A stretch of DNA of 64,000 nt from Bryopsis sp. KO-2023 (Eukaryota; Chlorophyta; Ulvophyceae; Bryopsidales; Bryopsidaceae): positions 1,240,001 through 1,304,000 of the forward strand of contig BSYQ01000012.1 of the NCBI GenBank assembly GCA_030272585.1. Direction: 5' to 3'. A model generated the notes under the pieces. It worked only from the letters and a program-made list of their open reading frames with translations. It was not told the origin of the DNA and ran no database searches. Below, piece after piece: positions 27,147-62,178 of the stretch. The translations under genes were made by a program, and so were the position numbers. Position 1 is the stretch's first letter; each line of letters opens with the position of its first letter.

Positions 27147-27320
27147 TGTTAGGTCCCTGAAGGTTTTAGTGAGTCGTTGCTGGAGTTGAGACTGGGGTCA
27201 CACACTTTCACAAACCAGAGAATTAATTTTACAAGTGTTCTCTCTGAACTTAACCCCCTAGAACCCGTACTAACCCGTACTACACACTCGTACTGCAAAA
27301 TGAGTGCGATCAACGTATCA
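27147..27320 (-). repeat. Element B 5' LTR
   Basis: 174 bp. One mismatch to the 3' LTR. Flanked by TSD TCCGC at 27321-27325. Confidence 0.93.
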
Positions 27321-36122: not shown

Positions 36123-36540
36123 TGTTAGTCTTTTAGCGCTATACGAGGTAGTTTGGGATAGAGCCGAGGGTGGCTGACGCATGTGGGTTCGCGAGTAAGA
36201 CAGATTAGACCCAGAGTTTGGGGCATGCGTCAGCGTACTACACTTAGGGGTACTTAAGAGGCCCACTCGTTGTTTTGACATTCACTTTATTTTGTAAGAA
36301 CTCGGGATTCGTGGGATTGGTGTGTTCCCGCTTGTGTGTGTGTTTGTGTGTGTGTGTTAAGTGTTTGCCTGACGCAATCACTTCCCAACCCAAGTGCTCT
36401 AGTAGCGTTCACAACCGCGCTAGCTAGAGAGTTGTCTAAACCAACAAACCCCACAAGTATACTTGCGTTAGCCAGCAAGTTATCACGAATCCAACCAACA
36501 CAGCCGACCACTATTGCGTCACCCACAAGCTTCACTATCA
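36123..36540 (+). repeat. Element G 5' LTR
   Basis: 418 bp, TGTTAGTC...CACTATCA. Identical by eye to 45794-46211. A GT-rich tract at about 36335-36358. Confidence 0.95.
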
Positions 36541-36542
36541 AT

Positions 36543-36554
36543 TGGTTTCGGAGC
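36543..36554 (+). promoter_or_regulatory. Element G primer-binding site
   Basis: TGGTTTCGGAGC, two bases (AT) after the LTR. Confidence 0.85.
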
Positions 36555-36685
36555 TTGGCAAGAACTTTAAGTTCTTGAGATCGAAACTTGTGAACGTGGC
36601 GCAACAAACGTTTTTGTTTGTTTGTTTGGTAGAGAGAAACTCCAACCGTGGTTGTTGAGTACTCCCAAATAGTGGCTGAGAGACC

Positions 36686-39337
36686 ATGGCTGACCGTGAA
36701 CACGCATTGGCAGTGCGCGAGCCTCAAGTTGAAGAGCCAGGGATTGAACCTGAGTTCGATGAGGAATTACCTGACGCACCCAATGTTGTGTATCAACAAA
36801 TAAACGTCCAGAACATCCACAATGTCCAGCAAGCAGCTGTCGACATAGACATGGGAGCTGATGCGGAAGCCTTAAGAGAGGATGTGGATGCGGTCCATGA
36901 CCGTGTGGACGATTTAGCCCACGGGCTAAGGGGTCACCTGCAGCAAGTTGACCAGACACTGGGGCAGAGGCTAGCCCATGCTGAGGCCTCTGTGTCGAAC
37001 CAACTGGCTGGCGCATCAGAGGTGATCGGACAGGCGCTGGAAACACAGCACCAGCATGCGCAACAGGTTGAGGCCACACAGCATGCGGTGGTGTCGCAAC
37101 AGCAGAAGCTGGATTCAGTAGCGGCTCAACATAGTCGATACGAGCAGAGGCTATTACGCCAAGATATCGACCATAGAAAAGAAAGAGCCGAGATCAAAGC
37201 TTCTGTGGATGCAATAACGAGGAGAATGGATGCCGCAGACATTCTAGCGGACTCTCGTTTTGCTGACCTAAAAGAAGCAACTGAAGCATCAGCACTTCAG
37301 TTAAAACAACTCTCCGAGTTATCCCTTGTTCAAGGGCGGAGAATTGAAGGCTTATTAGGAACTGTTGCGGATTCCAACGAAAAAGTCGAACGGACTCTAG
37401 AATTGTTTCGGGAGTCCTTGCACAAACAAGGTGCTGAGGTGAAGCGTTTGCAGAGCTCCAGAGTAGCAATTCAAAAAGATTTGATTGCCTTGGAGAAAAA
37501 GGCATCCAAGACCTGGGATCAGCAGCAAGATGCAGCTGATGTGGTTGCCTTAAGATTATCTGGCCTGGAACGAAGCATGGAGGATGTGAGTGGCGGAAGT
37601 CAGAGTGCCCAAAGTGGAAGTGATGCTCGTGCAGTATCACCAGAGCGTGAAGAATCAACTTCTCCTGAGCCTGAGGACTCAGCCTTTGGGATGCCGCTGC
37701 CGAAGAAATCAGTAAAGCAGTTGGCTGCATCATGGCCGCCACTAGACCAGAGCTTCGCGGTAGGAATGGTTGGAGCAGGAACCTCAACAATACCGGCTCC
37801 TCCAGCAGTACAGGTCGAGGAGGGTGAAATTGTTGCTGCAGAAGCACCACCATGCACTGCAGTGGACAGCGCACCAGACGCTGATTTCACATTCCCTCAA
37901 TTGATACCTCCAAGTACAAGAGCTCAGCCTGGAGTACGCATCTCAGAACCCGACTCTGCCGATGGATCACGTAGACCCACACGAACTAACCCAAGAGTTC
38001 TCTCCTCAGCAGAAGTGTTATATCAAATTGACCTTGAGCGTGCTAAGGCACAGGTCAGAGAAGAGAAAGGAAAAGAACCCATGCAGATCCCCACACGTAC
38101 TGGAAGATTGGGACTTGGGTTAAGTGCATTGGGAGCAAGGGTAGAAAATAATCCCTTTGCTGCACTTGGTTCATATGAGTCTACTGGTGGACCCAGTCGA
38201 GTTCCTCGCATGCGAGGTAACTTTGGAGACCCTGGTGATGACGACCCAGATGATGATGGCGGTGATGATTACCGCGACAGACGAAACCGCCCACCTTCCC
38301 GCATTCCAGGTGCGCCTGATGGCGGTGGAGGTGGTGGCGGCGGTGGGGATGGTGGAGGCGGTGGACCTCCCGGTGGACCTCCTGGTGGAGGTGGAGGTGG
38401 AGGTGGCGCTGGACCAGCAGGCCCAGGACCTCCTAGGCAAGGACAGTGGTTGCCTAGCACCGTCAAGTTGCAAATGCCTCGCGCATTTAACGGAAGTGGA
38501 GAACCAAAAGCCCGTAAATGGCAAGTGCTCATGACGCGGTACTTGAGAACCTGCGGAGTGCATGAAGCACAGTGGCAATCGATTATGGCCACTAACCTTT
38601 ATGGAGCTGCCTCGGATTGGTTAACGATGCAAGAGTTGAAAATTCACCGAGGTGAAAGACCACCCTTCCGTGACTGGATGGACTTCATGGATGGCTTAGC
38701 TACAGCTTTCGAATTCTCTAGTGATCGAGATGAAGCGTGGCGTGACCTCCACAAACTCAAGCAGACTGGAACCGTGAAACAGTTCGTTAAAGAGTTTCAG
38801 CGGTTAGTCTTGAGGATTCCAGACCTCGAAGAGGATCACCAGTATTTGCTCTTCGTGGATGGACTTAAAAGTGAAGTTCAGAAGTTAGTCGCAGCAACGG
38901 TACCTCGAGATGTCGAGGCCGCCATCATATCCGCCGAACGATTGGAAGCCCTTGGAGTTGGAACACAAGGCCAAGGAGGGCAAACCAATCAGAAAAAGAA
39001 AGGAGTCTGGCGTGGTGGAAGAAAGAAGAAAGGCCAGAATCAGGGTCAGCAGCAGCAGAACCCTACACCACCAGCCCAAGCACCACCACAAGCTGCCGCA
39101 GGAGTGCAACAGCAGCAGCAACAGCAACAAGGACGAGGAGGAGGACGTGGTGGTGGTGGACGTGGACGCGGTGGTGGTAACCGTGGAAGAGGACAAGCCA
39201 ATCAGGGAAGACAAAACCCCCAGGGGGGAGGGGGATATCATTGTTATCTTTGTGGAAAGAAGGGTCATCCTGTGAGGCAATGTCCTAGATTGGAGGAGGT
39301 GAAAAACCTCCCCGATGTAAAAAAAATGTTAAACTGA
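36686..39337 (+). CDS. Element G Gag
   Basis: 883 aa (MADREHALAV). Acidic start, a short VQNIHNVQ motif, long coiled coil (~60-310), Ser/Pro linker, a Gly-rich tract with runs of Gly and Pro (~545-590), Ty3-type capsid domain (~600-760), Gln-rich and RGG region (GRGGGRGGGGRGRGGG), and a single CCHC knuckle CYLCGKKGHPVRQC near 853. It forms particles and binds genomic RNA. Ends MLN-TGA; the heptamer GTTAAAC overlaps the last two sense codons and allows -1 entry into Pol. Confidence 0.93.
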   Translation: MADREHALAVREPQVEEPGIEPEFDEELPDAPNVVYQQINVQNIHNVQQAAVDIDMGADAEALREDVDAVHDRVDDLAHGLRGHLQQVDQTLGQRLAHAEASVSNQLAGASEVIGQALETQHQHAQQVEATQHAVVSQQQKLDSVAAQHSRYEQRLLRQDIDHRKERAEIKASVDAITRRMDAADILADSRFADLKEATEASALQLKQLSELSLVQGRRIEGLLGTVADSNEKVERTLELFRESLHKQGAEVKRLQSSRVAIQKDLIALEKKASKTWDQQQDAADVVALRLSGLERSMEDVSGGSQSAQSGSDARAVSPEREESTSPEPEDSAFGMPLPKKSVKQLAASWPPLDQSFAVGMVGAGTSTIPAPPAVQVEEGEIVAAEAPPCTAVDSAPDADFTFPQLIPPSTRAQPGVRISEPDSADGSRRPTRTNPRVLSSAEVLYQIDLERAKAQVREEKGKEPMQIPTRTGRLGLGLSALGARVENNPFAALGSYESTGGPSRVPRMRGNFGDPGDDDPDDDGGDDYRDRRNRPPSRIPGAPDGGGGGGGGGDGGGGGPPGGPPGGGGGGGGAGPAGPGPPRQGQWLPSTVKLQMPRAFNGSGEPKARKWQVLMTRYLRTCGVHEAQWQSIMATNLYGAASDWLTMQELKIHRGERPPFRDWMDFMDGLATAFEFSSDRDEAWRDLHKLKQTGTVKQFVKEFQRLVLRIPDLEEDHQYLLFVDGLKSEVQKLVAATVPRDVEAAIISAERLEALGVGTQGQGGQTNQKKKGVWRGGRKKKGQNQGQQQQNPTPPAQAPPQAAAGVQQQQQQQQGRGGGRGGGGRGRGGGNRGRGQANQGRQNPQGGGGYHCYLCGKKGHPVRQCPRLEEVKNLPDVKKMLN

Positions 39338-39372
39338 CCGCCAGGCAGGAAACTGCTTCGTCTGAGCCTGGC
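39328..39372 (+). promoter_or_regulatory. Candidate -1 programmed frameshift site (element G)
   Basis: GTTAAAC (39328-39334) is read G_TTA_AAC in the gag frame, directly before the gag TGA. After a 5-nt spacer, GCCAGGC (39340-39346) pairs perfectly with GCCTGGC (39366-39372). An A8 run (39319-39326) just upstream could also slip. The Pol frame is open from here. Confidence 0.65.
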
Positions 39373-42300
39373 CGACGCAAACGTCGTAAGCGAAACAGAG
39401 TTCGTAGGCGGCGTAGGAAGCATAGATCAAAAGTAGGTGCCTCGAAAAAGGTTAAAAGTACTCACAGCGGAAAACCTGGGGCGCGGACTAGTACACCGCG
39501 TGAAGAGAGAACAGAGACACTCTCCACATCTACCCAATCGGCACATGACAACTGCGATTGGAAAAATGAACAGAAGGAAAGCACACCGGATGAGATGGAC
39601 GCGCCTCATGCGTCATCTGCATCTCTTCCCTCTGTTAGTGAATCTGTGGGCTCATTGGAGTCGCAGAGTAGTCTACAGGAGTCCCTGCCTGCAGACGTAG
39701 ACGATAGTGGGTCAGAAACAACCCAGCGGTCTACCACAGAGCGAGTTAATGTGTCAGAAGTTCGATCAACTTCGTCAACCAAGGGTGACACATGCCCTCT
39801 GTTAAAAATTCAAGAAGTGCCTGTGAGAGGGTACGAAGTAAAAGCACGGATCAAGACCACGGACCTTTATGCATTCATTGATTGTGGAAGTACCGCAAAC
39901 TATATCAATGATAAGGTAGCGCGTGATCTCGGGTTGTCGATTACACCAAGCTCCAAGAGAGCAATGTTGGCAAACGGAGATATTAAAGAACTGGCTGGCA
40001 GCTGTAACAACCTCCGAGTAAAGATAGGAGGGCTGAAGTGCAAAATGAAAGCGGATCTGTTCCCAGACCTTGGTTATGACCTAATATTGGGCATGCCTTG
40101 GTTGCAGAAAGAAAACCCCCGCATAGACTTTCAGCAAAATGAGATTTCAGTTTGCAAAAACAGCCAAGTGTTTCATCTCCCGTTGCGTCATCCAACTCAA
40201 GAGAGTATTGAACCTGAACGAAAAGTACAGTCGATACTGCAAGAAGTGCCAGTGACTGAGTGTTCAGCTAAACGAATGATGCGTCATCTCAAAACAGAGA
40301 CAGCATTCATGGTTGTAGTGCAAGAATCTGAAGAGAAAGCTTTAGGCCAACATGAATTGCCTGACGCAATAGAGCGAACACAGCCATTCAACACTGAGGA
40401 TGAGATTGGCAAACTTATTCGTTCAGACACCCCTGCCGAAATTAAAAAGGTGGTAGAAACACACCGTGGTGTGTTCCCTCGTGATTTACCCCCAGGGATC
40501 CCTCCGAAGAGAAAAGGTCATGAGTTTAAGATAGACCTGGAGGATCCAACACCTATCCATCGTCCAATATACAAGCTTTCACCAGCAGAGCTGGATGAAG
40601 TGAAAGCACAAGTGGACTATCTTCTGGAACAGAAGAAAATCAAACCATCCGAGTCCCCTTGGGGCGCGCCAATCCTATTTGTACCGAAAAAGGATGGAGG
40701 CTTACGGATGTGTGTGGATTACAGGTGGATCAATAAGGTGACGGTGAAAAACCGATATCCTTTACCCCTGCCAGAAGAATTGATGGATAGAGTGTTCAAA
40801 GCCAAAGTGTTCTCGAAGTTAGATCTGCGATCAGGCTATTGGCAATTTCCCGTAAGGCCATCTGATACAGATAAGACAGCGTTCCGCACGAGATACGGTC
40901 ACTTTGAGTTTTTGGTAGCGCCTTTTGGGCTAACCAATTGCCCAGCGCAATTCCAAACTCTAGTGCAAGACCTACTCGCAGAGTTTTTAGATGATTTTGT
41001 TGTTGTCTTTATTGATGACATACTCATCTTCTCTGAAAACATGGAACAGCATGCCGAACACTTAGAGAAAGTCCTGTCGCGACTAGCAGAATATCAGCTT
41101 TTTGCTAAGGCAAGTAAAAGTGAGCTGGCTGTCGCAACAGTAGACTATCTTGGCTACCGCATTAGCGGAAGTGGGTTAGAACCACAGGAACAAAAAGTGA
41201 AGGCAGTGAAGGAGTGGAAGGAACTACAGAGTGTTAGCGATGTACGTAGTTTCCTTGGAATGGTTTCATACTACAGGAAATTCATTCCCCAGTTTGCACA
41301 TGTTGCTGGACCACTCCATGACTTAGTGAAAAAAGACCATCCCTGGAGATGGGGACAAGTGGAGCGTGGCGCATTCAATGAACTGAAAAAGCGTCTAAGT
41401 CAAGCTCCCGTCCTTATTTTTCCAGATGCGTCACTGCCTTACACTGTGATCACTGATGCGTCGAATGAGGCCATCGGTGCCGTGTTAACACAGGATCACG
41501 GAGAGGGGCTACAGCCAATAGCTTACCTCTCACGTAGATTCAAGCCTGCCGAGCTTAACTATGCACCATACGACAAAGAGTTGTGTGCAATATGTTATGC
41601 GATGGTGCAGTGGAGACATTATCTAGAAGGTTGTGCGGGTGGAGTAACAGTGTTCACTGACCACCAACCTCTGACGCATATTCTGTCGCAGAGGAACCTT
41701 TCTAGAACCCAAGCAAGATGGCTTGAGGCGGGGTACCTGACTTCGATCAACCCCAAGATCTCCTATATCAAAGGCAAGGCTAATGTGTTAGCAGATGCTC
41801 TCTCCCGCAGTGTTCCTAAGCCCGTGGAAACTGCGATGAACATTTCCACTTGGCAAGTGCATCAAGCAAGCCAAGACGAGTGGAAACAAGCCCTCCAAGC
41901 TGATAACTCCTTGGTGAAGATATTGCGGAAGCTTGAGAGTGGCGAGGAAGTTGAGGGATATTTCCTCAGAGAGGGAATACTCTGGACGGTCCCAAAGAGA
42001 GGATTAGTCGAGAAAGTGGTGGTTCCTAAAGGCCAGCGCAATAAGATTATGAAGGAGTGCCATGAGACACCTTCAGCAGGCCATACAGGACCAGCGCGAA
42101 CAGGAGAAATCCTAGCGCGGCGATATTGGTGGAAGGGGTGGATGAATGAGTTGAAGGCATTTGTGCGCGAATGCCCTGTGTGCCAACAAATAAAGGCTGA
42201 CACACAGAAGCCTATGGGCTTACTTCAACCCCTGCCAATACCTGAGCGGAAGTGGGAGCAGATTACCACTGACTTGGTGACAGATCTACCAGCATCCAAT

Positions 42301-43335
42301 GGGTTTAGTGCTGTAGCTGTCTTTGTCGATAGACTTACCAAGTTTGTGCATTTCGCCCCATGTACTAAAGAGATTACCGCTGCAGGATACGCCCAACTTT
42401 TTATCGAACATGTTTACCGCAACCATGGCCTACCTAAAGTGATTGTGTCTGATAGAGACCCTCGCTTTACCAGCAAGTTCTGGCAGACGCTTTTTAAAGC
42501 TCTGGGTACAGAGATTCGTATGAGTACAGCTTACCACCCTCAGACGGATGGGCAGAGTGAGGTTACCATACGTACTCTGGAAAATTTTCTAAGGCCATAT
42601 GCTGAGAGGTATCCCCATAAGTGGGTTGAGTATTTACCTACAGCAGAGTTTGCAGCAAACAATGCGGTGAATGCGAGTACAGGGTTCGCACCTGCATATT
42701 TGATGTATGGGTACCATCCAGAAACACCAAACATTGGTGGGACGGCAACGCAATTTCAAGTGGAAGCAGTTAAGACTATGGTAGCACGGATGGCACAGGA
42801 CTTAGATACCGCAAAAGCATATTACTCTAGAGCACAACACAGAATGTGTGTGAGTGCAAACAAGAAGAGGAAAGATATTGCTTTTGAGAAAGGGGATAAA
42901 GTCCTGATAAAAAGCCGTTTTATTCCGTTGGCTGCTTTGAACAAAGTGAGTCCCAAACTGCGCCGTCGATTTGTGGGTCCCTTTGAAATTGTGGAGAAAA
43001 TATCAAAGGTGGCTTACAGAGTTCAACTTCCGGAAACATGGCTCATTCACCCAGTGTTTCATGTTTCTAAGTTCAAGCGTTATCACGCCTCGAGTGATAA
43101 CAGCAGGCAGATACAACCTCCAGAAGGAGAGTTGATTGGTAGCGAAGTAGAGTATGAGGTCGAAAATATCCTAAGGGCTAGAGGTAAACGCAATCGCGAA
43201 TACCTAGTGCTGTGGAAAGGATACGATCTACTTGACGCTACTTGGGAACCTGAAGCTAATCTGGTTAACGCACCAGATATACTTCGCGCATTTAAAGAGA
43301 AAGAAAGAAAAGAGTTGCAGAAAGGAAGAGAATAG
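39334..43335 (+). CDS. Element G Pol: protease, RT, RNase H, integrase, chromodomain
   Basis: Open in the -1 frame from the gag stop; the first ATG is at 39595 (1246 aa from there). The upstream part encodes an Arg/Lys-rich stretch (RRKRRKRNRVRRRRRKH). Counting from the ATG: protease D-C-G at 96-98, LILGMPW, RT with FIDDILIF (472-477), RNase H (VITDASNEAIGAVL, ~615), HHCC (~825-875), integrase core (DRDPRFTSKFW, STAYHPQTDGQSE), GPF, chromodomain (EYLVLWKGYDLLDATWEP, ~1195-1235). Intact catalytic motifs. Expression probably needs frameshifting, although internal initiation at 39595 would lose the basic N-terminus only. Confidence 0.93.
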   Translation: MTARQETASSEPGRRKRRKRNRVRRRRRKHRSKVGASKKVKSTHSGKPGARTSTPREERTETLSTSTQSAHDNCDWKNEQKESTPDEMDAPHASSASLPSVSESVGSLESQSSLQESLPADVDDSGSETTQRSTTERVNVSEVRSTSSTKGDTCPLLKIQEVPVRGYEVKARIKTTDLYAFIDCGSTANYINDKVARDLGLSITPSSKRAMLANGDIKELAGSCNNLRVKIGGLKCKMKADLFPDLGYDLILGMPWLQKENPRIDFQQNEISVCKNSQVFHLPLRHPTQESIEPERKVQSILQEVPVTECSAKRMMRHLKTETAFMVVVQESEEKALGQHELPDAIERTQPFNTEDEIGKLIRSDTPAEIKKVVETHRGVFPRDLPPGIPPKRKGHEFKIDLEDPTPIHRPIYKLSPAELDEVKAQVDYLLEQKKIKPSESPWGAPILFVPKKDGGLRMCVDYRWINKVTVKNRYPLPLPEELMDRVFKAKVFSKLDLRSGYWQFPVRPSDTDKTAFRTRYGHFEFLVAPFGLTNCPAQFQTLVQDLLAEFLDDFVVVFIDDILIFSENMEQHAEHLEKVLSRLAEYQLFAKASKSELAVATVDYLGYRISGSGLEPQEQKVKAVKEWKELQSVSDVRSFLGMVSYYRKFIPQFAHVAGPLHDLVKKDHPWRWGQVERGAFNELKKRLSQAPVLIFPDASLPYTVITDASNEAIGAVLTQDHGEGLQPIAYLSRRFKPAELNYAPYDKELCAICYAMVQWRHYLEGCAGGVTVFTDHQPLTHILSQRNLSRTQARWLEAGYLTSINPKISYIKGKANVLADALSRSVPKPVETAMNISTWQVHQASQDEWKQALQADNSLVKILRKLESGEEVEGYFLREGILWTVPKRGLVEKVVVPKGQRNKIMKECHETPSAGHTGPARTGEILARRYWWKGWMNELKAFVRECPVCQQIKADTQKPMGLLQPLPIPERKWEQITTDLVTDLPASNGFSAVAVFVDRLTKFVHFAPCTKEITAAGYAQLFIEHVYRNHGLPKVIVSDRDPRFTSKFWQTLFKALGTEIRMSTAYHPQTDGQSEVTIRTLENFLRPYAERYPHKWVEYLPTAEFAANNAVNASTGFAPAYLMYGYHPETPNIGGTATQFQVEAVKTMVARMAQDLDTAKAYYSRAQHRMCVSANKKRKDIAFEKGDKVLIKSRFIPLAALNKVSPKLRRRFVGPFEIVEKISKVAYRVQLPETWLIHPVFHVSKFKRYHASSDNSRQIQPPEGELIGSEVEYEVENILRARGKRNREYLVLWKGYDLLDATWEPEANLVNAPDILRAFKEKERKELQKGRE

Positions 43336-43783
43336 GGAAACAGAGTGTTTGATGGCTAAGGTGGAACTCCTTATAGCAAGGGGGCGCGAAAAAGGATACC
43401 TTAGAAAAACTCTGTCGACTTCCAAACCAACTCTTTATCTTTAATGCGTTAGGTGCCTAAGTTATTTGGCTGGCGCAGTAAGTGTAGCTTCAGTAGTACT
43501 TTAGAAACCGGGCAAACGATGTCACATTCGAGATAGTGTGGTTATTCCGAGAAAACCCCTATCAAGTGACGTGTTGAGGTGGTCTTGACGAGACTCCAAC
43601 CGAGCGAAACGTTGGTGTCTCACCCCAATAACCCAACGAGGAAAGTGTACGAGTCACCCAGCCTTATAAGCGCAGCCCTCGAACCATTTTGCCCTAGTGT
43701 TTGTGTAAACGGAGCGAGCTCCTGAGTGAAAAGAGTCTAAAGACGCACAAACCGTTGTTATTTCTTTCTTTCCGACAAACATA
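43336..43783 (+). promoter_or_regulatory. Element G pol-ORF3 spacer with TATA box
   Basis: 448 bp without a supported ORF. CCAGCCTTATAAGCGCAGCCC-like box (TATAAG at 43665-43670) is about 115 bp before the ORF3 ATG and conserved in element A despite decay around it. Suggests a separate ORF3 transcript. Confidence 0.5.
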
Positions 43784-45598
43784 ATGGCTGCCGACACACC
43801 CGCCGCAATTATTGCGAGGTTGGAAGCGGAGGTAGCTCAAAAAGAAGAGGAGCTGCAGCACTTTGTTACGACCGCAGAGGAGGTGCTGCAGAACAATGAG
43901 GCCTTAACCCGGCAGCTCGCAGAGTTGAGTGACCGGACGAAAGCAGCTGAGGCTGCGAAGGAGGCAGCGGAAAAAGCCAAGGATAAGGCGGAGGCGGAAA
44001 AGAAAGAAGCGGAGGACAAGACTAAGGTCTTGGAAGAAAAATTGGAAGCCATGAAGCTGAAGAAGCAGCGGTTCCAATCTCACATGATGGCTAACCATCG
44101 TGAGAATGACCTCCGCAAGCAAGCTCTCGGGGGAATGGTGGATCGATTTACCGCGGTAGAGGAAACGCTGCAGCGAGCTGTAGCAACCGCGTGGAGTGCA
44201 GCAGCCAACAACCTTAAGAAGGAATTGGCAGAACAAGAGCTGCAGATCGATTTGCTGGGAGAGTCCCTCAGAGACGGCTCTGAAAAACTTCAAGTGCAGA
44301 GCGAAACAACGGACAAGATGCTGCGTTTGAACCCGGCGGTACCAGCACCACGGGTACGCGAAGAACTGGATCGCCAAGTCCAAGTTCTGTTGTCAAACGC
44401 AACACTTGATCTGGAACCGTCCAAGGACGATGATGCGGGAGGCTCAAGCAAGGGCAAGGGGAAAGGGAAAAACAAACGCCCAAGCTCGCCGTGTAGGGAT
44501 GAAGATCCACACGGAAAGAGAAGGCGAGAGGACGGTGACGATGAAGGTGGTGAGCCACCGAGGGATCGTATGCCTGGAGATGCAGCAAGAGCCAACTTGT
44601 TACTCAAGTTAAAGGCTGCCGCATTAAAGACTCCAGCACCCTCACAACCAGCGCCAACAGTTCAGACTCCCGGAGATGAGGCTACCGCAATAGCACCGGG
44701 GGAGGACTTATTCGACATGAGAGAGGAGGAGCTTTTGGACTTGGATTTTAACGAAGAAATTGACTTCGGCAGTCCACCTCCTAGGCTCGAAGGTCCTAGT
44801 TCTGAACTGGAGGACGGGGAAATAAGGAATGATGAAGGGCCAAGCCAGGTGACAGAGGTTCAGCGTGCGGTCCATCCACCGTTGGAGTTAGCTCCAACAG
44901 AAGCAGCACTTCGGGCTTTCCGAGAAAAGGTTAAGCTCAGAAGACTAAGGGCGGCTGCTCAGGACAAAGTGGATGCTGCACCCAGCGAAGTGAACCTGTC
45001 ACGGGAGGATATCGAGGAGGCTTGCAACCCCATCACTGCGTCAGAGAAATGGCCGAAGGTCCAATATACTAACCCCAGGGACCGAGCCTTGCAAAATTAC
45101 CGCGGCAACCGGCACTTTCACGAGTTGCCCATGTGCATTTGGTGCGGGAGAAGCCCAATGCAAGCAAGTGCTCAGCGGCTGACGCAGAAGAAGTATTCCG
45201 TCCTTCCTTGTGGGTATCACCTCGTGTGTGATGCTCACTGGTTGGCATACTCGATGCTGGGGCGCATCGTCACAGCGGTCCAAAAAGTCGCGGAAGTGGA
45301 CAACAAGTCCATCGCCACCGTCTCCCCATTCTCTCTACCTGCCCATATGTTGAAGCTGACACGCTCGACGTTCGAAGAAATCCCTCCGTTCCCGGCTGAG
45401 CACGAGAAGTTGCCACACTGCAACATGTGTGTGAAGCGGCAGCTCAAGGTGTCCGGCATCACAAGGGATCTGCCATTCCTAAAGTCCAAGAGGGTGGCTG
45501 CCGCATTTGATCCCTGTGTCCGGTATCGTGCAGTGCAGCAAGCGCATGCGCAGGAGCAGCGTGCTATTCAGCAAGCGCAAGCGCCGGAACAGCGTTAA
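43784..45598 (+). CDS. Element G ORF3: coiled-coil protein with RING-like Cys/His module
   Basis: 604 aa. Residues ~5-150 form an Ala/Glu/Lys-rich coiled coil; ~205-260 is an acidic/Lys-rich part with a likely nuclear signal (GKRRRED). The middle is acidic and Pro rich (EEELLDLDF, LEDGEIR). A C-terminal module (45133-45430) reads CIWC - x21 - C-x2-H-x2-C-x2-H-W - about 60 residues - CNMC. The tail is Gln/Ala rich. There is no signal peptide or convincing membrane span, so it is not an envelope protein. Sequence-level relatives are A ORF3 and, by motif, ORF3 of B and D. A RING-type zinc fold (position 6 His instead of Cys) is inferred from spacing; ubiquitin-ligase, chromatin or nucleic-acid roles are all possible. 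Confidence 0.85.
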   Translation: MAADTPAAIIARLEAEVAQKEEELQHFVTTAEEVLQNNEALTRQLAELSDRTKAAEAAKEAAEKAKDKAEAEKKEAEDKTKVLEEKLEAMKLKKQRFQSHMMANHRENDLRKQALGGMVDRFTAVEETLQRAVATAWSAAANNLKKELAEQELQIDLLGESLRDGSEKLQVQSETTDKMLRLNPAVPAPRVREELDRQVQVLLSNATLDLEPSKDDDAGGSSKGKGKGKNKRPSSPCRDEDPHGKRRREDGDDEGGEPPRDRMPGDAARANLLLKLKAAALKTPAPSQPAPTVQTPGDEATAIAPGEDLFDMREEELLDLDFNEEIDFGSPPPRLEGPSSELEDGEIRNDEGPSQVTEVQRAVHPPLELAPTEAALRAFREKVKLRRLRAAAQDKVDAAPSEVNLSREDIEEACNPITASEKWPKVQYTNPRDRALQNYRGNRHFHELPMCIWCGRSPMQASAQRLTQKKYSVLPCGYHLVCDAHWLAYSMLGRIVTAVQKVAEVDNKSIATVSPFSLPAHMLKLTRSTFEEIPPFPAEHEKLPHCNMCVKRQLKVSGITRDLPFLKSKRVAAAFDPCVRYRAVQQAHAQEQRAIQQAQAPEQR

Positions 45599-45793
45599 GG
45601 AGGAGGGAAAAGGAGTTATCGTCGACCAAGTGTGTGCGTGCAGCAGCTGTCAGAGACGTCAGAGCAAGAGACAGGTCCAAGACAGTTGGGTGTGGGTATG
45701 GGAGTGGGTGAGTTTTGTGTTTGTGTTTTTGTGTTTTTGTTTTTCTTTGTGTTTTGGTGTGCGTGGGCGCCCACTTTTTGCGGGGGGGGCGTA
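45599..45793 (+). promoter_or_regulatory. Element G 3' region: palindrome and polypurine tract
   Basis: GT/T-rich stretch, then GTGGGCGCCCAC (about 45764-45775), T5 and GCGGGGGGGGCGTA (45780-45793), immediately followed by the 3' LTR. Confidence 0.7.
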
Positions 45794-46211
45794 TGTTAGT
45801 CTTTTAGCGCTATACGAGGTAGTTTGGGATAGAGCCGAGGGTGGCTGACGCATGTGGGTTCGCGAGTAAGACAGATTAGACCCAGAGTTTGGGGCATGCG
45901 TCAGCGTACTACACTTAGGGGTACTTAAGAGGCCCACTCGTTGTTTTGACATTCACTTTATTTTGTAAGAACTCGGGATTCGTGGGATTGGTGTGTTCCC
46001 GCTTGTGTGTGTGTTTGTGTGTGTGTGTTAAGTGTTTGCCTGACGCAATCACTTCCCAACCCAAGTGCTCTAGTAGCGTTCACAACCGCGCTAGCTAGAG
46101 AGTTGTCTAAACCAACAAACCCCACAAGTATACTTGCGTTAGCCAGCAAGTTATCACGAATCCAACCAACACAGCCGACCACTATTGCGTCACCCACAAG
46201 CTTCACTATCA
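45794..46211 (+). repeat. Element G 3' LTR
   Basis: 418 bp, identical by eye to the 5' LTR. Ends at TSD CCAGG. Confidence 0.95.
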
Positions 46212-49176: not shown

Positions 49177-50463
49177 AGGGCCGCTAGCTATACGCCTAGC
49201 GCGCCTTAGGCGGAACCATTATCAATTCTGTCTCGCATTTTCGATTACCCTCAAGAAACAGGGTTGCTGACGCGCAAGTTCAGTAGAACGCACAAGTTCA
49301 ATCATAATGCCAAAACACAACCCAATCCTGTGAAGAGGAAACGGAGGTGAGGGAGCAAACGGAGAAAGTGGAAAAGGCGGAGGTAGAAAGCAAGAAAGGC
49401 GGCGGAAAAATAGGCAACCCAGTCGGTGGACAGGGTGGTAGCCTAGCCGATTTCTGCCCTTCACCTAACTCTTCCGCACCACTCGTTATTCCACCAAGTT
49501 CCAAGGATCGCAGAAACCCACAAAAGAGCGGATGCGCAGTTTGAGCAAGACTTGTTGCAAGCGGTGAACAAACCACCGACTATTCCGCGGACAAGGCCTC
49601 TCTGGACTTTCAAGAGGTCGCGGATAGACTCCTTCGACGAGAGCTCGTCTTGAATCGATCATGGAGATTGGAAAGGAGGCAATAGTCAAACTTTGGAATG
49701 TGCAGAAGCCGATCTAGTACGAAGAAACGGCGACTGTCCCTATAAATCAGAGGCTGGCAAGCTTGATTATAGTGGGGTGAACCATGCTCTCGGGAAAATA
49801 GCGAAGCAAGCTCAGAAGCACTTTGAGGTACCTGACTTTCCCAACGAGTTACAGGATATACCTCAGCCTAGGCAAATGAATGAGATCACAGACAGGCTGG
49901 AGGTTAAGCACAAAAGGAAGGCACAAGCGGAGAACGCCAAGAAACGGAAAGCATGAAAGAAGGTGCCCCGGGGATCAATGCCGGGCGCAGATCCGGGTAC
50001 CTAGAAAGGATGCGAAACGGGTGGGGAATCAGATCAGCCGCCAGGAGGGACACCGATCCCAACGGACTCTTCGTCGAGCAAGAGTTCGGCCGACCTTGAT
50101 TCGGCAGATGACTTGATCGACTTGGCGGAGGAAAACATCGTCCGAGCAGCACATTGAGCAGCGGACTCAGTTCGCAGCCAAGCAGCATTCTGAGCAGCGG
50201 ACTTAGTGAGTAGCCAAGCCAGCGACCAAGCCAGAGCTCAAGCTCAAGCCTCAGAGACCGACGAAGCCGGAGGTCAGCGACAGAACCGGGGGTTTTGTTT
50301 GGGAACGGGTTTGTTCGGGGGTTTTTCGTGGGGTTTTGTTTCGGGATTAGGTTCTTTCTTAGTTACCTTGTGGGGTTCGTTCTTAGTTTCTTTCTTTTCC
50401 TGTTTTCTGTTTTGTGTTTTGTTACGGGTGTGGACACCCTCTCGTGGGGGGGGGGGGACAAAT
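49177..50463 (+). pseudogene. Element F: ORF3 relic and 3' end of a D-like element
   Basis: Degenerate homologue of D 59880-62069. The ATG at 49309 (MPKHNPI then stop) corresponds to the D ORF3 start (MPKHSPI). The piece 49693-49956 encodes DYSGVNHALGKIAKQAQKHF...VPDF, matching D ORF3 near residues 305-350. The Cys module is not recognisable. The 3' part has GT-rich sequence, GGGTGTGGACACCC, and a G12 tract (50447-50458). Left part lost where H begins. Confidence 0.7.
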
Positions 50464-51288: not shown

Positions 51289-51570
51289 ATGGATGATTAT
51301 TTTTTGGACAACGACGATGTGGAGGGGGAAATAGATTTCGACTTCCAGAAACTAGAAGGGTAATCAACTTGTCACTTTGGATCAACTCCCATCATTATTT
51401 TGGTCTTTTCTCGGTCATTCATTCCGCTTTGTTATTAATATTTTGTCCATCTCTTGTCTTGAAATCGAATATGTAGGGGTGACAAGGAGATGTGCAAGGT
51501 GTTGGTCGAGAAACATCGTAGGTCGATGAACGCAAACACAAAGAGCGCATATGCGACGGGTTGGAGACCC

Positions 51571-51679
51571 TGATAGTAGTAACTCGGGTTTAGGGTTATT
51601 GTGTAGTGTAGTACAATGGGATGTACGACAGGGTTTATAGGGCAGGGGGCCCTCCTGTAAAAATTAATCTTCCCAGTGA

Positions 51680-51712
<33 letters not shown>

Positions 51713-51746
51713 TGCTTGTGTCTCGGGGTCCTAGACCCCCTTATCA
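51571..51746 (+). repeat. Element D 5' LTR
   Basis: 176 bp, TGATAGTAG...CTTATCA, with (CT)n and (GT)n tracts. Identical by eye to 62070-62245. Confidence 0.95.
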
Positions 51747-51748
51747 TT

Positions 51749-51760
51749 TGGTTTCGGAGC
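51749..51760 (+). promoter_or_regulatory. Element D primer-binding site
   Basis: TGGTTTCGGAGC two bases after the LTR. Confidence 0.85.
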
Positions 51761-52490
51761 TGGCGAGGCCAGGCGCACCCCACAGGAGAACTCGCGAACC
51801 CCCCCCCAAAGATCTGACCTTAGGGATTACTAAATCCCACAGATCTGGAACTCTGTGTTCCAGGGGTCGCGAGGAGAGCTATCCTTCGAACGACGTGCTC
51901 GCGTCGTCGTTCGAAAACGTCAGGCGAAGTCGCAAAAGAATCGGAGTCCAGTGAACGAATTTCTGGAAACCTACAGATCTGTAGATCTAAAGGAAAACAA
52001 GGCGAAAGCACTACAACAGTGCAAGGAGAGCAACGATCGGCGTAAACCCGAAACGCGCAGGCGAACAACCGAAAGTGCGAACCGGCGTAGGAAAGAACGT
52101 CGTCCGGAACGACCAACTTCCGTCGACTGACGCTTCTGCCAGTAACACGAAAAACAGTCGTTCTGGCAGGTGACTCATTGTCACTCTTTCCAGCGCGCAA
52201 TCGGTTACCGCACCGCCTGAGTCACGACTGGTTCTACAGTTAGTCGTAGACTGAATCACCGGCCAAGGTACTAACCTAGTCGGCTGACAGAACGCGAACG
52301 GGAAAGTAACACCCGACGTTGTCAAGTGTAAAACTCCTATCTATTTCTGACCTAGTAAGGTTCAAGAAAAGATAGCGACTAGGATTGCAACCAGAACTGA
52401 AACAAGTTCGCATCCAAGTCACCAGAAAGTTTGGAAACTTTCCGGACACACTCCTATTACGTCAAAATTCCAGGAAATTCAAACAAAAAC
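51761..52490 (+). other. Element D 5' leader
   Basis: 730 bp between PBS and the gag ATG. It has an Arg-rich small frame at 51855-52130 with no known similarity, most likely untranslated. An upstream extension of the gag frame to 52431 lacks an ATG. Confidence 0.5.
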
Positions 52491-55151
52491 ATGTCCGGCC
52501 AGGCGCCGCCACAGCTACCACCTATTCCACCTCCTGAGGAGGAAGAGGTGGTGGATAACCAACTAATTCCCGTGGTTTATCCAGATGTGGTGCACCCACC
52601 AGCGCAGCAAATACATGATTTGCAGTGGGACAGACATGTACCCGACCAGGTTGAGGAACCGGACGCAGACTTAGACTCTGAACAAGAGTCGGAAGAGTCC
52701 GGGGACGAGGAGTATGATGAGGATATGGAGGACGTCCCGACAATAGAAGTCACCAACATCCTTCACCATGAACATCAGCACATAAACGTCCACCAGCAGG
52801 AGGTGCACGTTCATGGTGTGGACGAGGGACAACTTAGGGACACAGCTGAGCATGTGTATGCCGCTGTCTCCTCGAATGTGCAAGAGGTCGCACAAAACCT
52901 GGAAGGACAAGTTCACGAGCAGGTTCAGCGTGCAGAGTCGACCTTAAAAGGCGACCTGAAAGAGGAATATGAGCAGTTCGTGCTCTATGTCAGGAAGGAG
53001 GCCCAGAAGCTGGTCAATCAAAATACTGAGTCTATAGAAAGACAACAGAAATTGTTAGACCACCAGCACAAATTGCTGGAACAGAATATAAAGTCCACAG
53101 AGCGGATCGACAGAAATCTGTTGGGTAAATACGATAACGAGGCTATTCTGCAAGAGCGACTCGATCGACTGCAGGAATCAGCCCGTACCCAAGCTGAAGC
53201 TGTTGATCAGACCAATGCGCTCAGGGAGAAACAAATTCTGTCTCTGCAAGCCTCTCTGACAAAAGTTGCTGAAGGTATGCGCCTACAGCAGACAACGCTG
53301 GATAACCTAGCTCGGACTACTGATGAGTCTCGGTGCGAGCAAGTCGACCACCAAGGCCAGCTAGACACACTCTCAGGCTTGGTAAGCCAGAGCCTAAAAG
53401 TGTTGCGGGACTTACACCAAGCCGAAGAACAACGCAAACAAAGAAGAGCGGAACGAGGCAGTGTGAGTTCTGATGACACTGCAGGAGGACACAGGTCGAT
53501 GCAACTGATGGAGAAATTTCTATCAGACGCGACAGAGAAACAGCAGACTTTGGAAAGTAACCTATCCAAGTATGTTGATTCTAAGTTCAAAGAAACACTG
53601 AGTGCGTGGAAAAAACGGGAGAAAGTTCGAGTCCCGGCTCAGGACCCAGTTGTAGTGGGTATGATGGGAGCAGGAACTGGCACGGTCACTTTGCCGGCCA
53701 CGACAGCTGCAGCCACAAGCGTTCCTTTTGTGTCATCCACTCCTCTTACCAGTATCCCATTTCCGGTACCACCTGTTCCGGATCTGAGTACTTTTACTGG
53801 TCTAACCACGTTAGGAGGATTGGGTGGTCGCAGCCCATCGACAACTGTCGCAGACTCCGTGGGTGGAGGTTCTCCATCTTCCTGGGGTTTATTTACATCC
53901 CCAAGAACACGGACGGCATGGAGTCTTGCGCCGCCACAAACTATGGCAATGGGCGCACCATTCGGCCAAGCGGGTCAACTTGGCACAGCCAGACCCATAC
54001 TTAGTGTCCCTGTAACGAGTGTGTTACCACCAACGACATCCATGTTAACACAACCACTGACGACAGTTCCGCTGTCTGTCTTCTATCCAATCCCGGCTCT
54101 TAACACCCAACCTGGTATCCAACCAGGAAACCAACCAGGCACCCAACCAAGTTTGGGACAATCCGTAAACCAATACGGAGCACCTTCCGCGAGTAACCCG
54201 TATTACGGGTGGGGTTCTTATCCCTCAACTCCATCAAGCCAGCCACAGGGTGGAAATCGATCTGGTGGTGGAGGGGGACCCGGAGGTGGGCCTGGGGGTG
54301 GAGGCGGAGGCGGAGGAGGACCACCTGGAAGTGGAGGGGGATCTTTCCTTTCCGGACCAGGTGGAGGTGGGGGTGGTGGATGGCCGTACCACCCAGGTGG
54401 AGGTGGAGGTGGCGGAGGTGGAGGTGGGGGTCCTCCAGACCCTAACCAAGGCTTTGCTGCTCCGCAAGATCGCCACGGACGGATTCCGTCATCCGTTCGT
54501 ATTCCTTTCCCAAAGGCCTTCTCAGGTGATGGTCAGCGATGGATCAGAGATTGGCAACTAGAAATGACGGTCTATTGCCAGACTTTGGACATCGATGAGA
54601 GCGTATGGTTCAGGCTCTTCCGCAGTAACCTGACCGGAGCTGCTGCTCAGTGGCGAAACGTCCAGGATCTGCGTACAAGGGAAGGAAAAAGACATCCAAT
54701 CACAAATTGGATTGAGTTTGTTGAGGAACTAGTCCAAGCATTTGAACCCACCAGAATGTCTGATGTAGCCAGGCGCTCCTTACGGAACCTGAAACAGACT
54801 GGGTCAGTGCATCAGTACATTGTTGCTTTCCGAGAACAAGTGCTGAGGATTCCCAACATGACAGATGAAGAACAATACTTCTTCTTCGTGGACGGGTTAA
54901 AGTTCCATATCAAACAACAAACTGTGGCTCAAGTGCCGCACGGCATTGAGTTGGCGATCCAGACGGCGGCTCGTCTTGATGCTATTGCCTCATCCGGAGG
55001 AGGAAACTTTCGTGGCCGCGGACGGTGGCGCGGAGGTAAAGGCCGAGGCCAAAATAAAAAGCAAAACCAACCCCAGACTGATAAGGCAAACCAGATGGGT
55101 GGCCAACAGCAACCTCAGCCAGACCAGGCACAAAACATTGGCCAAGGTTGA
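52491..55151 (+). CDS. Element D Gag, ending at an in-frame TGA upstream of the zinc knuckle
   Basis: 886 aa from MSGQAPPQLP to TGA at 55149-55151. Acidic N-terminus, an INVHQQEVHVHG motif, coiled coil (~110-370), Thr/Pro linker, Gly/Pro tract (~590-660), capsid domain (~670-830, RWIRDWQLEMTVYCQTL, EQYFFFVDGL), then the start of the RGG region. The same frame stays open after the TGA to 55325 and encodes more RGG boxes and the CCHC knuckle CYMCGKTGHIQSKC (about 55232-55275). So the TGA removes the RNA-binding tail and blocks the route to Pol unless it is read through. A CGA to TGA change is the simplest explanation. Confidence 0.88.
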   Translation: MSGQAPPQLPPIPPPEEEEVVDNQLIPVVYPDVVHPPAQQIHDLQWDRHVPDQVEEPDADLDSEQESEESGDEEYDEDMEDVPTIEVTNILHHEHQHINVHQQEVHVHGVDEGQLRDTAEHVYAAVSSNVQEVAQNLEGQVHEQVQRAESTLKGDLKEEYEQFVLYVRKEAQKLVNQNTESIERQQKLLDHQHKLLEQNIKSTERIDRNLLGKYDNEAILQERLDRLQESARTQAEAVDQTNALREKQILSLQASLTKVAEGMRLQQTTLDNLARTTDESRCEQVDHQGQLDTLSGLVSQSLKVLRDLHQAEEQRKQRRAERGSVSSDDTAGGHRSMQLMEKFLSDATEKQQTLESNLSKYVDSKFKETLSAWKKREKVRVPAQDPVVVGMMGAGTGTVTLPATTAAATSVPFVSSTPLTSIPFPVPPVPDLSTFTGLTTLGGLGGRSPSTTVADSVGGGSPSSWGLFTSPRTRTAWSLAPPQTMAMGAPFGQAGQLGTARPILSVPVTSVLPPTTSMLTQPLTTVPLSVFYPIPALNTQPGIQPGNQPGTQPSLGQSVNQYGAPSASNPYYGWGSYPSTPSSQPQGGNRSGGGGGPGGGPGGGGGGGGGPPGSGGGSFLSGPGGGGGGGWPYHPGGGGGGGGGGGGPPDPNQGFAAPQDRHGRIPSSVRIPFPKAFSGDGQRWIRDWQLEMTVYCQTLDIDESVWFRLFRSNLTGAAAQWRNVQDLRTREGKRHPITNWIEFVEELVQAFEPTRMSDVARRSLRNLKQTGSVHQYIVAFREQVLRIPNMTDEEQYFFFVDGLKFHIKQQTVAQVPHGIELAIQTAARLDAIASSGGGNFRGRGRWRGGKGRGQNKKQNQPQTDKANQMGGQQQPQPDQAQNIGQG

Positions 55152-55273
55152 GGTCGGGGAAGGGGTGGTGGCCGAGGTCGCGGACGAGGTGGTGGCAGGA
55201 ATCAAGGACGTGGAGGTGGAGGCGTAAATCCTAAATGCTATATGTGTGGAAAAACTGGACATATTCAAAGTAA

Positions 55274-58200
55274 GTGTCCAGAGGGCGAAAAGTTCAAGAA
55301 ATGGTTAAACGAAAAAGCCGGATGAACAGAGCCCAGACTCGTTCGGCGAAACGCAGAAGGGCACGCCGTCACAGATATAAGCAGTGCCAGAAACTTCTTA
55401 GAAAAGAAAGGTTAGCTCGAAATGCAGAAGTGAATAAAAGAGCACAAGGGGAAATAGAAAAGAATGCTACCCAAGGTGCAGAGGGATCGATTATGAGTGC
55501 TAAGTTGGAAACTCGATCCAGTAAGTGCAGCACGCTTACTAGGACAAGTTCAGAATCAAGTTCGGAACCTGTCGACTCTGTTCATGGAGACCTTGGTAGT
55601 CCTGAAGGAACTGAGAATTCGGTATCGTTCCCGCCTCAAGGAACGAAACGAAGTCCGGAAGGAAGGGAACCCGCAAGGGAATCAAATAAGCCTGCCACTC
55701 GTTCACCACCAACTGACGAGTCAGCAGCCCCTGTTCAGGGAACAGGTAGAGGACAAAAAGTGGATGAAGGTCAGTATTCACCTTCTGAGCGTATGTTACC
55801 ACTAGGAGGTCCTAACCATTTGAAATTTATGGGATATGAGATCCGAGCCAGATTAGGAGGAGTACCGATCTCCGCCTATGTTGATTGTGGTGCAACGGAG
55901 AACTACATTACCAAGAAACTAGTCACGAGACTGAAACTCGAAACAACCGAGTGCAAAAAGGGAGTCACTTTGGCGGACGGAACCCTATGTTCACTTGATC
56001 GGCGATGCGAAGACTTGCAGCTCAGGATGGGTACTTATACCACAACCCTTTCCGCAGACGTCTTCCCAAGCCTTTCATATGACATGATACTAGGGCTTCC
56101 TTGGTTGATGCAGACCAATCCCAAACTGGACTTTGCAACAGGCACGCTCAAAGTTCCAGTGGGTGCTGGATGGACAACTGTTCCTATGAAGGAACGACCA
56201 TCAGATTACTTACAGCACCTAGCACCGGCTATTGATACAGTCTCAGCAAAAAAGTTATTCTCGCTCGTGAAGAACAGTCCAGAAGTTGATCAGGCATACC
56301 TTGTGGTTGTGCGACCAACCACCCCGGAAGATATGGCACATCTCATGCAGTATCCATATCCGGGAATTCCAGAAGAGCGTTTGAACGCTACTGGAACCAC
56401 ACCAGCTTATCTCCAGCCGGATGTGGAAAAGGTAATGCATTCGGGTCTCGACCCAAGGATCAAGGCTGTCCTCACAAGTTTCAAGGATGTGTTCCCGAAA
56501 GACTTACCACCCGGCGTTCCTCCAGTCAGAAAAGGCCACGAATTTAAGGTGGACCTGGAGGACGAACAAATGACCCCAATCCACCGTCCCTTGTACAAAC
56601 TCTCTCCAGCCGAGCTGGACGAAGTTAGGACACAGGTGGATTACCTCCTCGAACAAAGGAAGATCCGACCCTCCGAGAGTCCCTGGGGCGCACCCATACT
56701 CTTTGTTCCCAAGAAAGACGGAGGGTTGAGAATGTGTGTGGATTACCGTTGGATAAACAAATTCACGGTAAAGAATAGGTATCCACTCCCTCTTCCTGAG
56801 GAGTTAATGGACCGTCTCGCCAGAGCGAAGATCTATACGAAGATCGACCTCCGCTCAGGCTACTGGCAGTTTCCCGTTCGACCCAAGGATACTCCCAAGA
56901 CGGCATTCCGGACGAGATACGGACATTTCGAATTTCTCGTGTGTCCGTTCGGAATGACCAACTGCCCAGCCCAGTTCCAGACCATGGTTCAGGATTTGCT
57001 GGGGGAGTTCCTTGATGAGTTTGTAGTGGTGTTTATCGACGACATCCTGGTCTTTTCCAACTCGGTGGAAGAGCACGTCGAGCACCTAAAACTGGTCTTT
57101 GAACGGTTGCGGAAACATAAGTTGTACGCAAAAGCCAGTAAGTGCGAAGTAGGGGTAGCAGAGACGGACTACCTGGGGTATCATTTGTCGGAAAAAGGCC
57201 TTCAACCGATGCAGGATAAGGTTAAGGCTATTCAACAATGGAAGGAGTTAACTTCGGTCACTGATGTGCGAAGTTTCCTGGGAATGGTGTCTTACTATCG
57301 TAAGTTCATTCCTGAGTTCGCTAGGATTGCGAGTCCCTTGACAGATCTAACCAAGAAGGATACTGTCTGGGAATGGGGGCTGAACCAACGCAATGCCTAC
57401 AACGAACTTAAGGATCGGATTAGCCGCGCACCGATCTTACTCCTTCCTGATCCGGTTAAGGAGTACACCGTAATAACGGATGCATCTGGAACTGCATATG
57501 GAGCGGTTCTTACCCAGGATCATGGGAAAGGTTTGCAACCAATTGCATACCTTTCCAGACGATTAAAACCAGCTGAAACGCGATACTCCGCATATGAGCG
57601 GGAGCTGGGGGCAATAGCATATGCTTTAGCCCAGTGGCGACACTACCTTGAGGAATGCGATGGGGGTGTGAAGGTGTTGACGGACCACAAACCGATCACC
57701 CACTTCATGAACCAGAGCACGTTGTCGCGGACCCAAACCCGGTGGTTAAACTCAGGGTTTTTCCAATCCATAGGTCCAAAAATCGTCTATATCCAGGGGA
57801 AAGCCAATGTCTTGGCTGATGCGTTATCCCGGAGCCTTCCTGGTCCGCCAGACCAGCTCAATAACCTCTCCACTTGGGAAGTGGCAGAGAAGGAGGCATG
57901 GAAAGAGGCTTTGAGAAGTGATGAACAACTCAAGCCTATCTTTGAAAGGATGGAACGAGGGGTTTCTCCGCAATACAAGCTGGACGACGGGTTCTTGTAT
58001 TATACCAAGACAGACCCAGGTCCTAGTTTGCTTGTGGTCCCTGCTTCTTTCCAGAAACGGATTCTGGAAGAGCATCACGACGTTCCCAGTGCCGGTCATG
58101 TTGGAGCAGACCGCATGACCGAAGTACTTACCCGCAGTTACTGGTGGAAAGGCGTTGGGTTAGCCGTCAAGGCATACGTGAAAACGTGCCCAACTTGTCA

Positions 58201-59392: not shown

Positions 59393-60015
59393 ACAGGGAT
59401 CATTACCACTCTGTTCACGCTCGACTTAATACTATCCTTCCAGCTGGGGGAAAAATATTAAGCCGAGAAAGTCAATTTGGAACGCTATCCAGATGGGATA
59501 CCAAAAAGACTTAGGAAAAGAGCACCAAGTAGAACTCCCGGAAAAGCCTAGGGAAAGTTTCCATCTTTTCCTAGGGAAAGTTTCCATCTTTTCCGGCGAA
59601 CGGGTTGCTATCTTTTCCCGTGACAGAACTGTGAACGGTTCGCAGGACGGGCTAGGGGTCAGTTTTCTTTCCGGGGAGGTTTACCTAACGCACAACTCAC
59701 ACGCTCATAGCGACTGACAACAGGTGATGGGGACATTGGATCAAGTGATGGGTTAATGTCCGACCTGGAGGTCACGTGATTGCGCCGCAGGTGGAACTGA
59801 GTTGACATAAGCAAGTTAGGGTAAAATCAAATAGGCACAAACCCGTGTGGTGACGGCGACCTCCATAGAGTGTCACGTTACCGAGGTACGTTAGCTAATA
59901 CGCCTAGCGTATCTTAAAGCGGACTTGCGATCATTTTGGCCTGGTTATTCTCGGCGCGCATACAGAAAAGTCGGAGACTAGTCGGAGAACAAAGCGCAGC
60001 CAACACAAAAAGAGA
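59393..60015 (+). other. Element D pol-ORF3 spacer
   Basis: 623 bp without a supported ORF. Contains a perfect 23-bp tandem duplication at 59547-59592 (unit begins CCTAGGGAAAG). A TCTTAAAG box near 59912 is the only TATA-like candidate at the spacing used by B and G. Confidence 0.5.
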
Positions 60016-61785: not shown

Positions 61786-62069
61786 GATGGGTTCTGAAGT
61801 GACAACGAAAAGCAGACCAAGCCGGAGACCAAGCTACCGTCCAAGCCAGAGACCAAGCCTCAAGACAGAACGGGGTTTTTCTGTGGGGTTGAGCATGGGT
61901 TTGGTTTGGGATTTTTCATCGGTTTGTTTGGGGTTTAGTTTGACGTTTAGTTGGGGTTTTTGTTGTGGGTTTGTTTGGGGTTTCTTTTTCTTCTAGTTCG
62001 ACCTTTTTCTTTCTTTCTTTCCAGGGTTGTGACGGGTGTGGACACCCTCTCGTGGGGGGGGGGACAACT
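61786..62069 (+). promoter_or_regulatory. Element D 3' region: GT-rich tract, palindrome, polypurine tract
   Basis: GGGTTT-rich sequence, then GGGTGTGGACACCC (about 62034-62047) and a G10 run (62054-62063) followed by ACAACT and the 3' LTR. Layout shared with B and F. Confidence 0.7.
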
Positions 62070-62178
62070 TGATAGTAGTAACTCGGGTTTAGGGTTATTG
62101 TGTAGTGTAGTACAATGGGATGTACGACAGGGTTTATAGGGCAGGGGGCCCTCCTGTAAAAATTAATCTTCCCAGTGA

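Follow-up and report, generated by a model that had tools for sequence, protein, structure and literature searches.

A third gene under purifying selection downstream of pol in chromovirus-type Ty3/Gypsy elements of the green alga Bryopsis sp. KO-2023

Several Ty3/Gypsy elements in the DNA analysed here carry a separate open reading frame, ORF3, between pol and the 3' LTR, which raises the question of whether this frame is a gene and what its product may do. The window, i.e., the whole stretch of DNA that was analysed, comprises 64,000 nucleotides of contig BSYQ01000012.1 (positions 1,240,001 to 1,304,000), and the genome searched comprises 91.1 Mb in 28 contigs. A preliminary description of the window assumed a fungal, basidiomycete setting, which has to be abandoned, since the DNA comes from the siphonous green alga Bryopsis sp. 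KO-2023.

ORF3 as a gene of one chromovirus clade

In this work, ORF3 was observed intact and in sense orientation in the elements G, B and D, where it lies between pol and the 3' LTR and its frame is open over the interval first proposed (Table 1). It was also observed downstream of pol in a fourth family, B2, located elsewhere in the genome; the B2 protein has 587 aa and shares 41% identity with that of B over an alignment of 561 residues. A sense ORF between pol and the 3' LTR that is retained in copies is termed aORF-3S, and ORF3 is such a frame. Element G is of the chromovirus type according to Pfam, with protease, RT, RNase H, integrase and chromodomain in pol and gag in the first ORF, and its LTRs of 418 bp each (36123-36540, 45794-46211) are 100% identical. 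LTRs also bound B and D, the pol of which is assigned to chromoviruses by 54-68% identity only. The pol proteins of G, B and D share this identity among themselves and 34-38% with those of C and E, and by this measure they form one chromovirus clade. The other families of the window, C and E, are without ORF3, their gaps between pol and the LTR being ~140 and ~320 nt, and therefore ORF3 marks one clade within the window.

Table 1. Coordinates of the elements, ORF3 genes, Cys/His modules and spacers in the window
Feature	Position	Strand	Basis or details
Element G, chromovirus-type Ty3/Gypsy	36123..46211	+	LTRs and Pfam domains
G gag	36680..39337	+	Retrotrans_gag E 1.2e-10, Ty3_capsid E 1.3e-8 (Pfam)
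G pol, chromodomain at C terminus	39289..43335	+	Pfam
G pol-ORF3 spacer, putative internal promoter	43565..43783	+	sequence match; TATAAG 43665-43670 (-119)
G ORF3, 604 aa	43784..45598	+	open frame
G Cys/His module, C451 to C549	45134..45430	+	motif search
Element D between LTRs	51563..62245	+	LTRs 51563-51746, 62062-62245, 98.4%
D spacer before ORF3	59908..60015	+	TATA-like TATCTTAAA at 59910 (-106), and ATCATTTTGG
D ORF3, 589 aa	60016..61785	+	open frame
D Cys/His module, C393 to C477	61192..61446	+	motif search
Element B between LTRs	11091..27320	-	LTRs 99.4%; element C (17661-23746) interrupts B
B spacer before ORF3	13201..13420	-	TATAAA at 13318-13313 (-118); 100 nt up to TATAAA conserved with B2
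B ORF3, 644 aa	11266..13200	-	open frame
B Cys/His module, C503 to C589	11434..11694	-	motif search
ORF3 relic of interrupted G-type copy A/F	1974..7394	-	pieces within 7394-6684, 6467-5764, 4736-4500, 2135-1974
D-related ORF3 relic, middle part	49654..49956	+	sequence matches

The insertions between positions 1500 and 48929 are nested, with G within E, C within B and B within the A/F copy. A 5-bp repeat, CCAGG, flanks G. The ORF of element C (18057-23162, minus strand) contains before its protease, at residues 392-451, a segment like Dam N6-adenine methyltransferase (PF05869, E 3e-5, 24.2 bits, under the curated cutoff of 28.1). A and F, both initially listed as carrying ORF3 relics, are two pieces of one G-type copy that was split by B, and the pieces abut at G 40050-40056. 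The claim holds for A, in the form of scattered pieces only (matches from 7367 to 1974), and not for F, where no tblastn match for ORF3 was found.

The copy numbers of ORF3 in the genome are lower bounds, as only the best candidates were scored, and the copies of the window are counted in. All 73 scored matches of G ORF3 were full length and stop-free (299 first-look candidates), which gives at least 73 intact G copies. With a second G probe, a frame of at least 600 aa was present in 137 of the 149 matches outside the probe's own place (window G counted in). For D, 48 of 76 match rows spanned at least 576 residues, four of these with a stop; for B, 38 of 98 began at residue 1 or 8 and reached at least residue 608 (two with a stop); and B2 gave 14 rows of 586-587 residues, one with a stop. 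Diverged ORF3 copies were also searched for in the genome, and B-family variants and broken D-like pieces were obtained but no new intact family. The idea that B2 is a deletion derivative arose from one copy and was dropped, as L048 and L050, two of three further copies, carry long pol frames; that of L049 is shorter. At one D locus, L030 in the region of C1:5010366, ORF3 stands immediately behind an inserted E-family element and is still open after the foreign LTR; the odd pol tail of this locus is the inserted element. Many other B copies diverge from the window copy past residue 611 (window 11266-11360, minus strand), and the last 35 residues of window B ORF3 match other B copies again ~90 nt further on.

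The selection assumed at the outset was confirmed within families, where dN/dS was 0.14 for D (27 copies), 0.06 for G (8 copies) and 0.10 for B2 (4 copies); the D and G loci were taken from the top of the ranking by protein score (30 of 76 rows for D, three of them dropped for stops, and 8 of 73 for G), so dN is biased somewhat down. By blocks of 100 residues, dN/dS in D was 0.09-0.16, with 0.35 in the last block, and the D pol tail had a value of 0.10 (23 copies). Between A and G, it was 0.22 for ORF3 and 0.12 for pol. In a neutral simulation of 26 D copies, 886 amino-acid changes were expected and 382 were seen.

A frame of this kind could in principle be left open by composition, or be an artefact of gene models. 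In this respect, whole G ORF3 had two matches among the best 8000 candidates scored in the protein database, both of them gene models of Bryopsis sp. KO-2023 that splice pol pieces to ORF3 pieces and are not evidence of a real message. However, purifying selection acts in three families and the C-terminal module is homologous across families at 23-34% identity. Moreover, all 26 compared D copies are stop-free, although under the neutral model the average probability of this is 22% per copy; of the 30 loci, three had been set aside for their stops. Chance or artefact is thus scarcely credible: ORF3 is a real gene under purifying selection, and the clade of G, B and D, otherwise ordinary retrotransposons, is unusual in this accessory gene kept by selection. 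The remaining protein-database searches returned no match, either for residues 340-540 of D ORF3 (0 of 1290 candidates at E <= 1) or for residues 490-612 of B ORF3 (0 of 92 candidates). This does not prove that homologues are absent elsewhere, since even the D ORF3 of Bryopsis itself had no record among the matches, and annotation probably skips such genes.

The Cys/His module and the rest of the protein

On comparison of the sequences, the C-terminal zinc-type module is homologous among the ORF3 proteins of G, B, D and B2. The Cys/His pattern by which it was recognised in the preliminary description was searched for as C..C.{8,25}C..H..C..HW, which is found exactly three times in the six frames of the window, once per ORF3. 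When the 598 ORFs with at least 50 aa were shuffled 200 times with their composition kept, the motif never appeared, although it had been chosen after the three ORF3s were seen. The module comprises ~100 aa, and 95-105 columns align between families, including the stretch between ligands 6 and 7. The hhalign probability was 96.4 for D-B (105 columns) and 90.8 for G-D (95 columns) but only 12.3 for G-B, and BLASTP within the four-protein set gave 3e-7 (G-D), 9e-8 (B-D) and 7e-5 (G-B). In D, all eight ligands and W421, the Trp after ligand 6, are invariant in 27 of 27 copies. Outside the module, hhalign revealed no convincing homology between G, D and B, and the sequences are indeed very different overall, as had been said of them.

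Heptad-rich segments are present in all four families, and in G, D and B they lie in the first half of the protein, best at residue 10 (G), 168 (D) and 103 (B) by a simple score used without a control, in agreement with the coiled coil described earlier. A coiled coil with a C-terminal RING is a common plan of ubiquitin ligases. ORF3 has this arrangement if the module is a RING, and it could then be a ligase that dimerises by the coiled coil, recruits E2 by the module and targets a histone or a restriction factor of the host for degradation. The ligand order C-x2-C-x(12-21)-C-x2-H-x-V-C-x2-H resembles the RING core, and in both AlphaFold models (pTM 0.54 and 0.71) a short strand runs into a helix beginning at ligands 5 and 6. 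On the other hand, ligand 6 is His in every family instead of Cys, and ligands 6 and 7 are spaced by 53-60 residues, whereas the usual RING spacing is 4-48. The best RING match in a Pfam profile search, zf-RING_5, was touched by one of five members at E 0.041, which is not significant. No RING was found in the PDB by sequence, where only chance-level matches occurred (e.g., DNA primase small subunit, E 0.95), no PDB fold matched the two models, and PHROGs gave nothing below E 0.05; small zinc folds are easily missed in such searches. The RING identity offered in the preliminary description was therefore a fair guess that is unproven, and a ligase function seems unlikely to us. No homologue of known function was found in the protein-database, PDB, Pfam and PHROGs searches. 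Five stretches in a scan of viral contigs fit the Cys/His pattern, none of them a relative, and the full-text literature contained, among the matches listed, no paper on this protein or the Bryopsis nuclear genome.

Short K/R motifs of the NLS type are present in all four proteins, and a stricter basic-cluster rule was passed by B only; NLS motifs are commonplace in lysine-rich proteins. The absence of membrane spans noted at first holds for G, D and B2, which are without a hydrophobic N terminus or membrane span (maximum Kyte-Doolittle 1.01 or less), but not for window B, which has a hydrophobic run in its tail at residue 616 (Kyte-Doolittle 2.06). These data bear on the envelope-like function often proposed for sense ORFs at this position. 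ORF3 lies between pol and the 3' LTR as the plant env-like ORFs do in the available part of PMC7264820, and window B ORF3 ends in a hydrophobic stretch. However, this run stands after the module and apparently derives from the T-rich tract before the polypurine tract. Neither the signal peptide nor the membrane span of an envelope was found in the other three families, and a zinc-type module with basic motifs is unsuited to an envelope, so we consider an envelope-like gene very improbable.

The pol-ORF3 spacer and the likely role of ORF3

A new feature reported here is a predicted promoter in the pol-ORF3 spacer, with a TATA box that precedes the start codon by 95-126 nt and stands below spacer sequence conserved between B and B2. 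The motif TATA[AT][AG] was located at -119 (G), -95 (A), -118 (B) and -126 (B2), i.e., in four of five variants, and is expected 0.011 times per 41-nt window; the four boxes are not independent cases because G/A and B/B2 are related pairs. The TATA-like TATCTTAAA of D is imperfect and was put into the pattern after being seen. A [CT]CATTTT block follows the TATA box in G, D and B2, with variants in A and B; in G, it is an initiator-like CCATTTT ~20 nt beyond TATAAG. By comparing B with B2, 13 of 99 sites were found to differ in the 100 nt up to the TATA box, against a synonymous divergence of 0.40 in pol (P = 4e-9), and 44 of 90 positions downstream of the box. The rest of the spacer (23 of 109 differ) is also under the synonymous rate, so the conservation is not confined to the promoter block. 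Conservation of the B/B2 spacer beyond synonymous sites points to a function, as far as sequence comparison can indicate one. The footprint in the G/A spacer is weak: 12 of 58 sites differ, fewer than at the rate of ORF3 (P = 1e-4) but not fewer than at that of pol. When the sequence before ORF3 was read by eye, no splice acceptor was conspicuous. Transcription of ORF3 from a promoter of its own in the pol-ORF3 spacer is thus supported as a prediction. In B, B2 and G, the TATA box is closely preceded by a bZIP-like hexamer, TGACTC/GAGTCA, which was seen by eye (13318-13345, minus strand; 43640-43670, plus strand). The pol-ORF3 spacer of D (59390-60015, plus strand) contains a direct repeat of ~23 bp, CCTAGGGAAAGTTTCCATCTTTTC, and a partial third copy, also seen by eye and possibly regulatory.

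We hypothesize, with somewhat better than even confidence, that ORF3 is an old accessory gene of one Bryopsis chromovirus clade, coding for a nuclear accessory protein and read from an internal promoter in a TAV-like layout. The ORF3 mRNA would start at its own promoter in the spacer, and the protein would enter the nucleus and assemble via its coiled coil. The Cys/His module may then hold a host partner, chromatin or nucleic acid, by which expression of the element would be promoted or silencing by the host blunted. The role would most likely be nuclear regulation from its own promoter.

A different possibility is that ORF3 acts on the element's own RNA, as a Rev/CERV-like factor for the export, packaging or protection of genomic RNA. 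The basic motifs and heptad-rich segments would be compatible with this, and CERV of Cer1 is a precedent: in the accessible portion of its description, it is an additional, nuclear protein encoded by an LTR element, which can form rods and is required for the genomic RNA to leave the nucleus (PMC10309623). However, CERV belongs to an animal host and is made from a spliced mRNA, whereas ORF3 is preceded by a promoter-like block instead of a splice acceptor recognisable by eye. Furthermore, the full-length ORF3 proteins had no significant match in Pfam, and no RNA-binding domain was recognised in them. Such an RNA-directed role is rather improbable in our estimate.

For the favoured reading, a nuclear regulator with its own promoter, the layout resembles that of the caulimovirus TAV/P6 with its 19S promoter, where a gene directly downstream of the RT gene has a TATA spacer and a separate regulator mRNA; the part of PMC5902531 at hand attributes a second promoter to TAV of CaMV and to foamy virus accessory functions. 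ORF3 differs in that it sits in an LTR retrotransposon and its promoter is predicted only; the likeness is one of layout. The antisense ORF of Grande (gene23) is likewise an accessory gene towards the 3' end. The available text of PMC7264820 ascribes to it a promoter of its own and cites a title that calls the product nuclear; unlike ORF3, it is antisense to gag-pol. The plant aORF-3S are similar in position, strand and presence across copies, but the same text describes them as env-like, with transcripts that start in the 5' LTR and are reported to be spliced in some cases. ORF3 is not of the env kind, has the Cys/His module at its C terminus and is preceded by a separate promoter-like block, and that text, as far as available, does not mention zinc, RING, coiled or alga (PMC7264820). 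The ORF3s of bdelloid rotifers are likewise family-specific besides gag and pol and several are not envelope-like, but they are of env, GDSL, DEDDy, TM or coiled-coil types, reportedly expressed from spliced messages, and the available part of their description mentions neither zinc nor RING (PMC5408684). The sunflower Tekay aORF encodes a chromovirus accessory protein with an NLS, helices and disorder that is conserved in hundreds of copies; it differs by its position 5' of gag-pol, and in the portion of the source at hand no Cys/His module is mentioned; the whole text has 'zinc finger' once (PMC11728184).

Extra genes of LTR retrotransposons are known in plants, rotifers and worms, few of them with a known function and many filed as env-like. 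In this siphonous alga, ORF3 has been retained in four families, with many near-identical young copies, a conserved module and a predicted promoter, and for these reasons it is tractable: one protein, one spacer and one cultured alga. A real internal promoter would mean that an LTR retrotransposon, too, can have the two promoters known from caulimoviruses and foamy viruses, a point of relevance to the origin of accessory genes; should the module prove to be a new zinc fold, it would be a structural target.

A step in divergence between pol and ORF3

The pol proteins of B and B2 are 90% identical and their ORF3 proteins 41%; between A and G, the pol pieces are 91-99% identical and the ORF3 pieces 52-78%. 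Synonymous divergence (pS) also rises from pol to ORF3, from 0.40 to 0.77 in B/B2 and from 0.14 to 0.58 in A/G, and the jump falls near the predicted start site. A bolder hypothesis would connect these observations in a two-promoter LTR retrotransposon. In such an element, a nuclear regulator with a new zinc fold would be expressed from an internal TATA promoter, and everything from the start site on would be swapped between lineages as a cassette. Breakpoints at the start site would then result if reverse transcription switched templates from the 5' end of a co-packaged ORF3 mRNA. We regard this hypothesis as doubtful, and the jump could also be due to recombination with unsampled lineages, to pol homogenisation or, in relic A, to a composite origin. 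Among the D copies, synonymous diversity is 0.097 in ORF3 versus 0.028 in the pol tail, with no sharp step, which tells against a cassette. Compared with the G LTR, the 3' LTR of A is ~15% different and the F LTR ~5%, which favours a composite origin for A.
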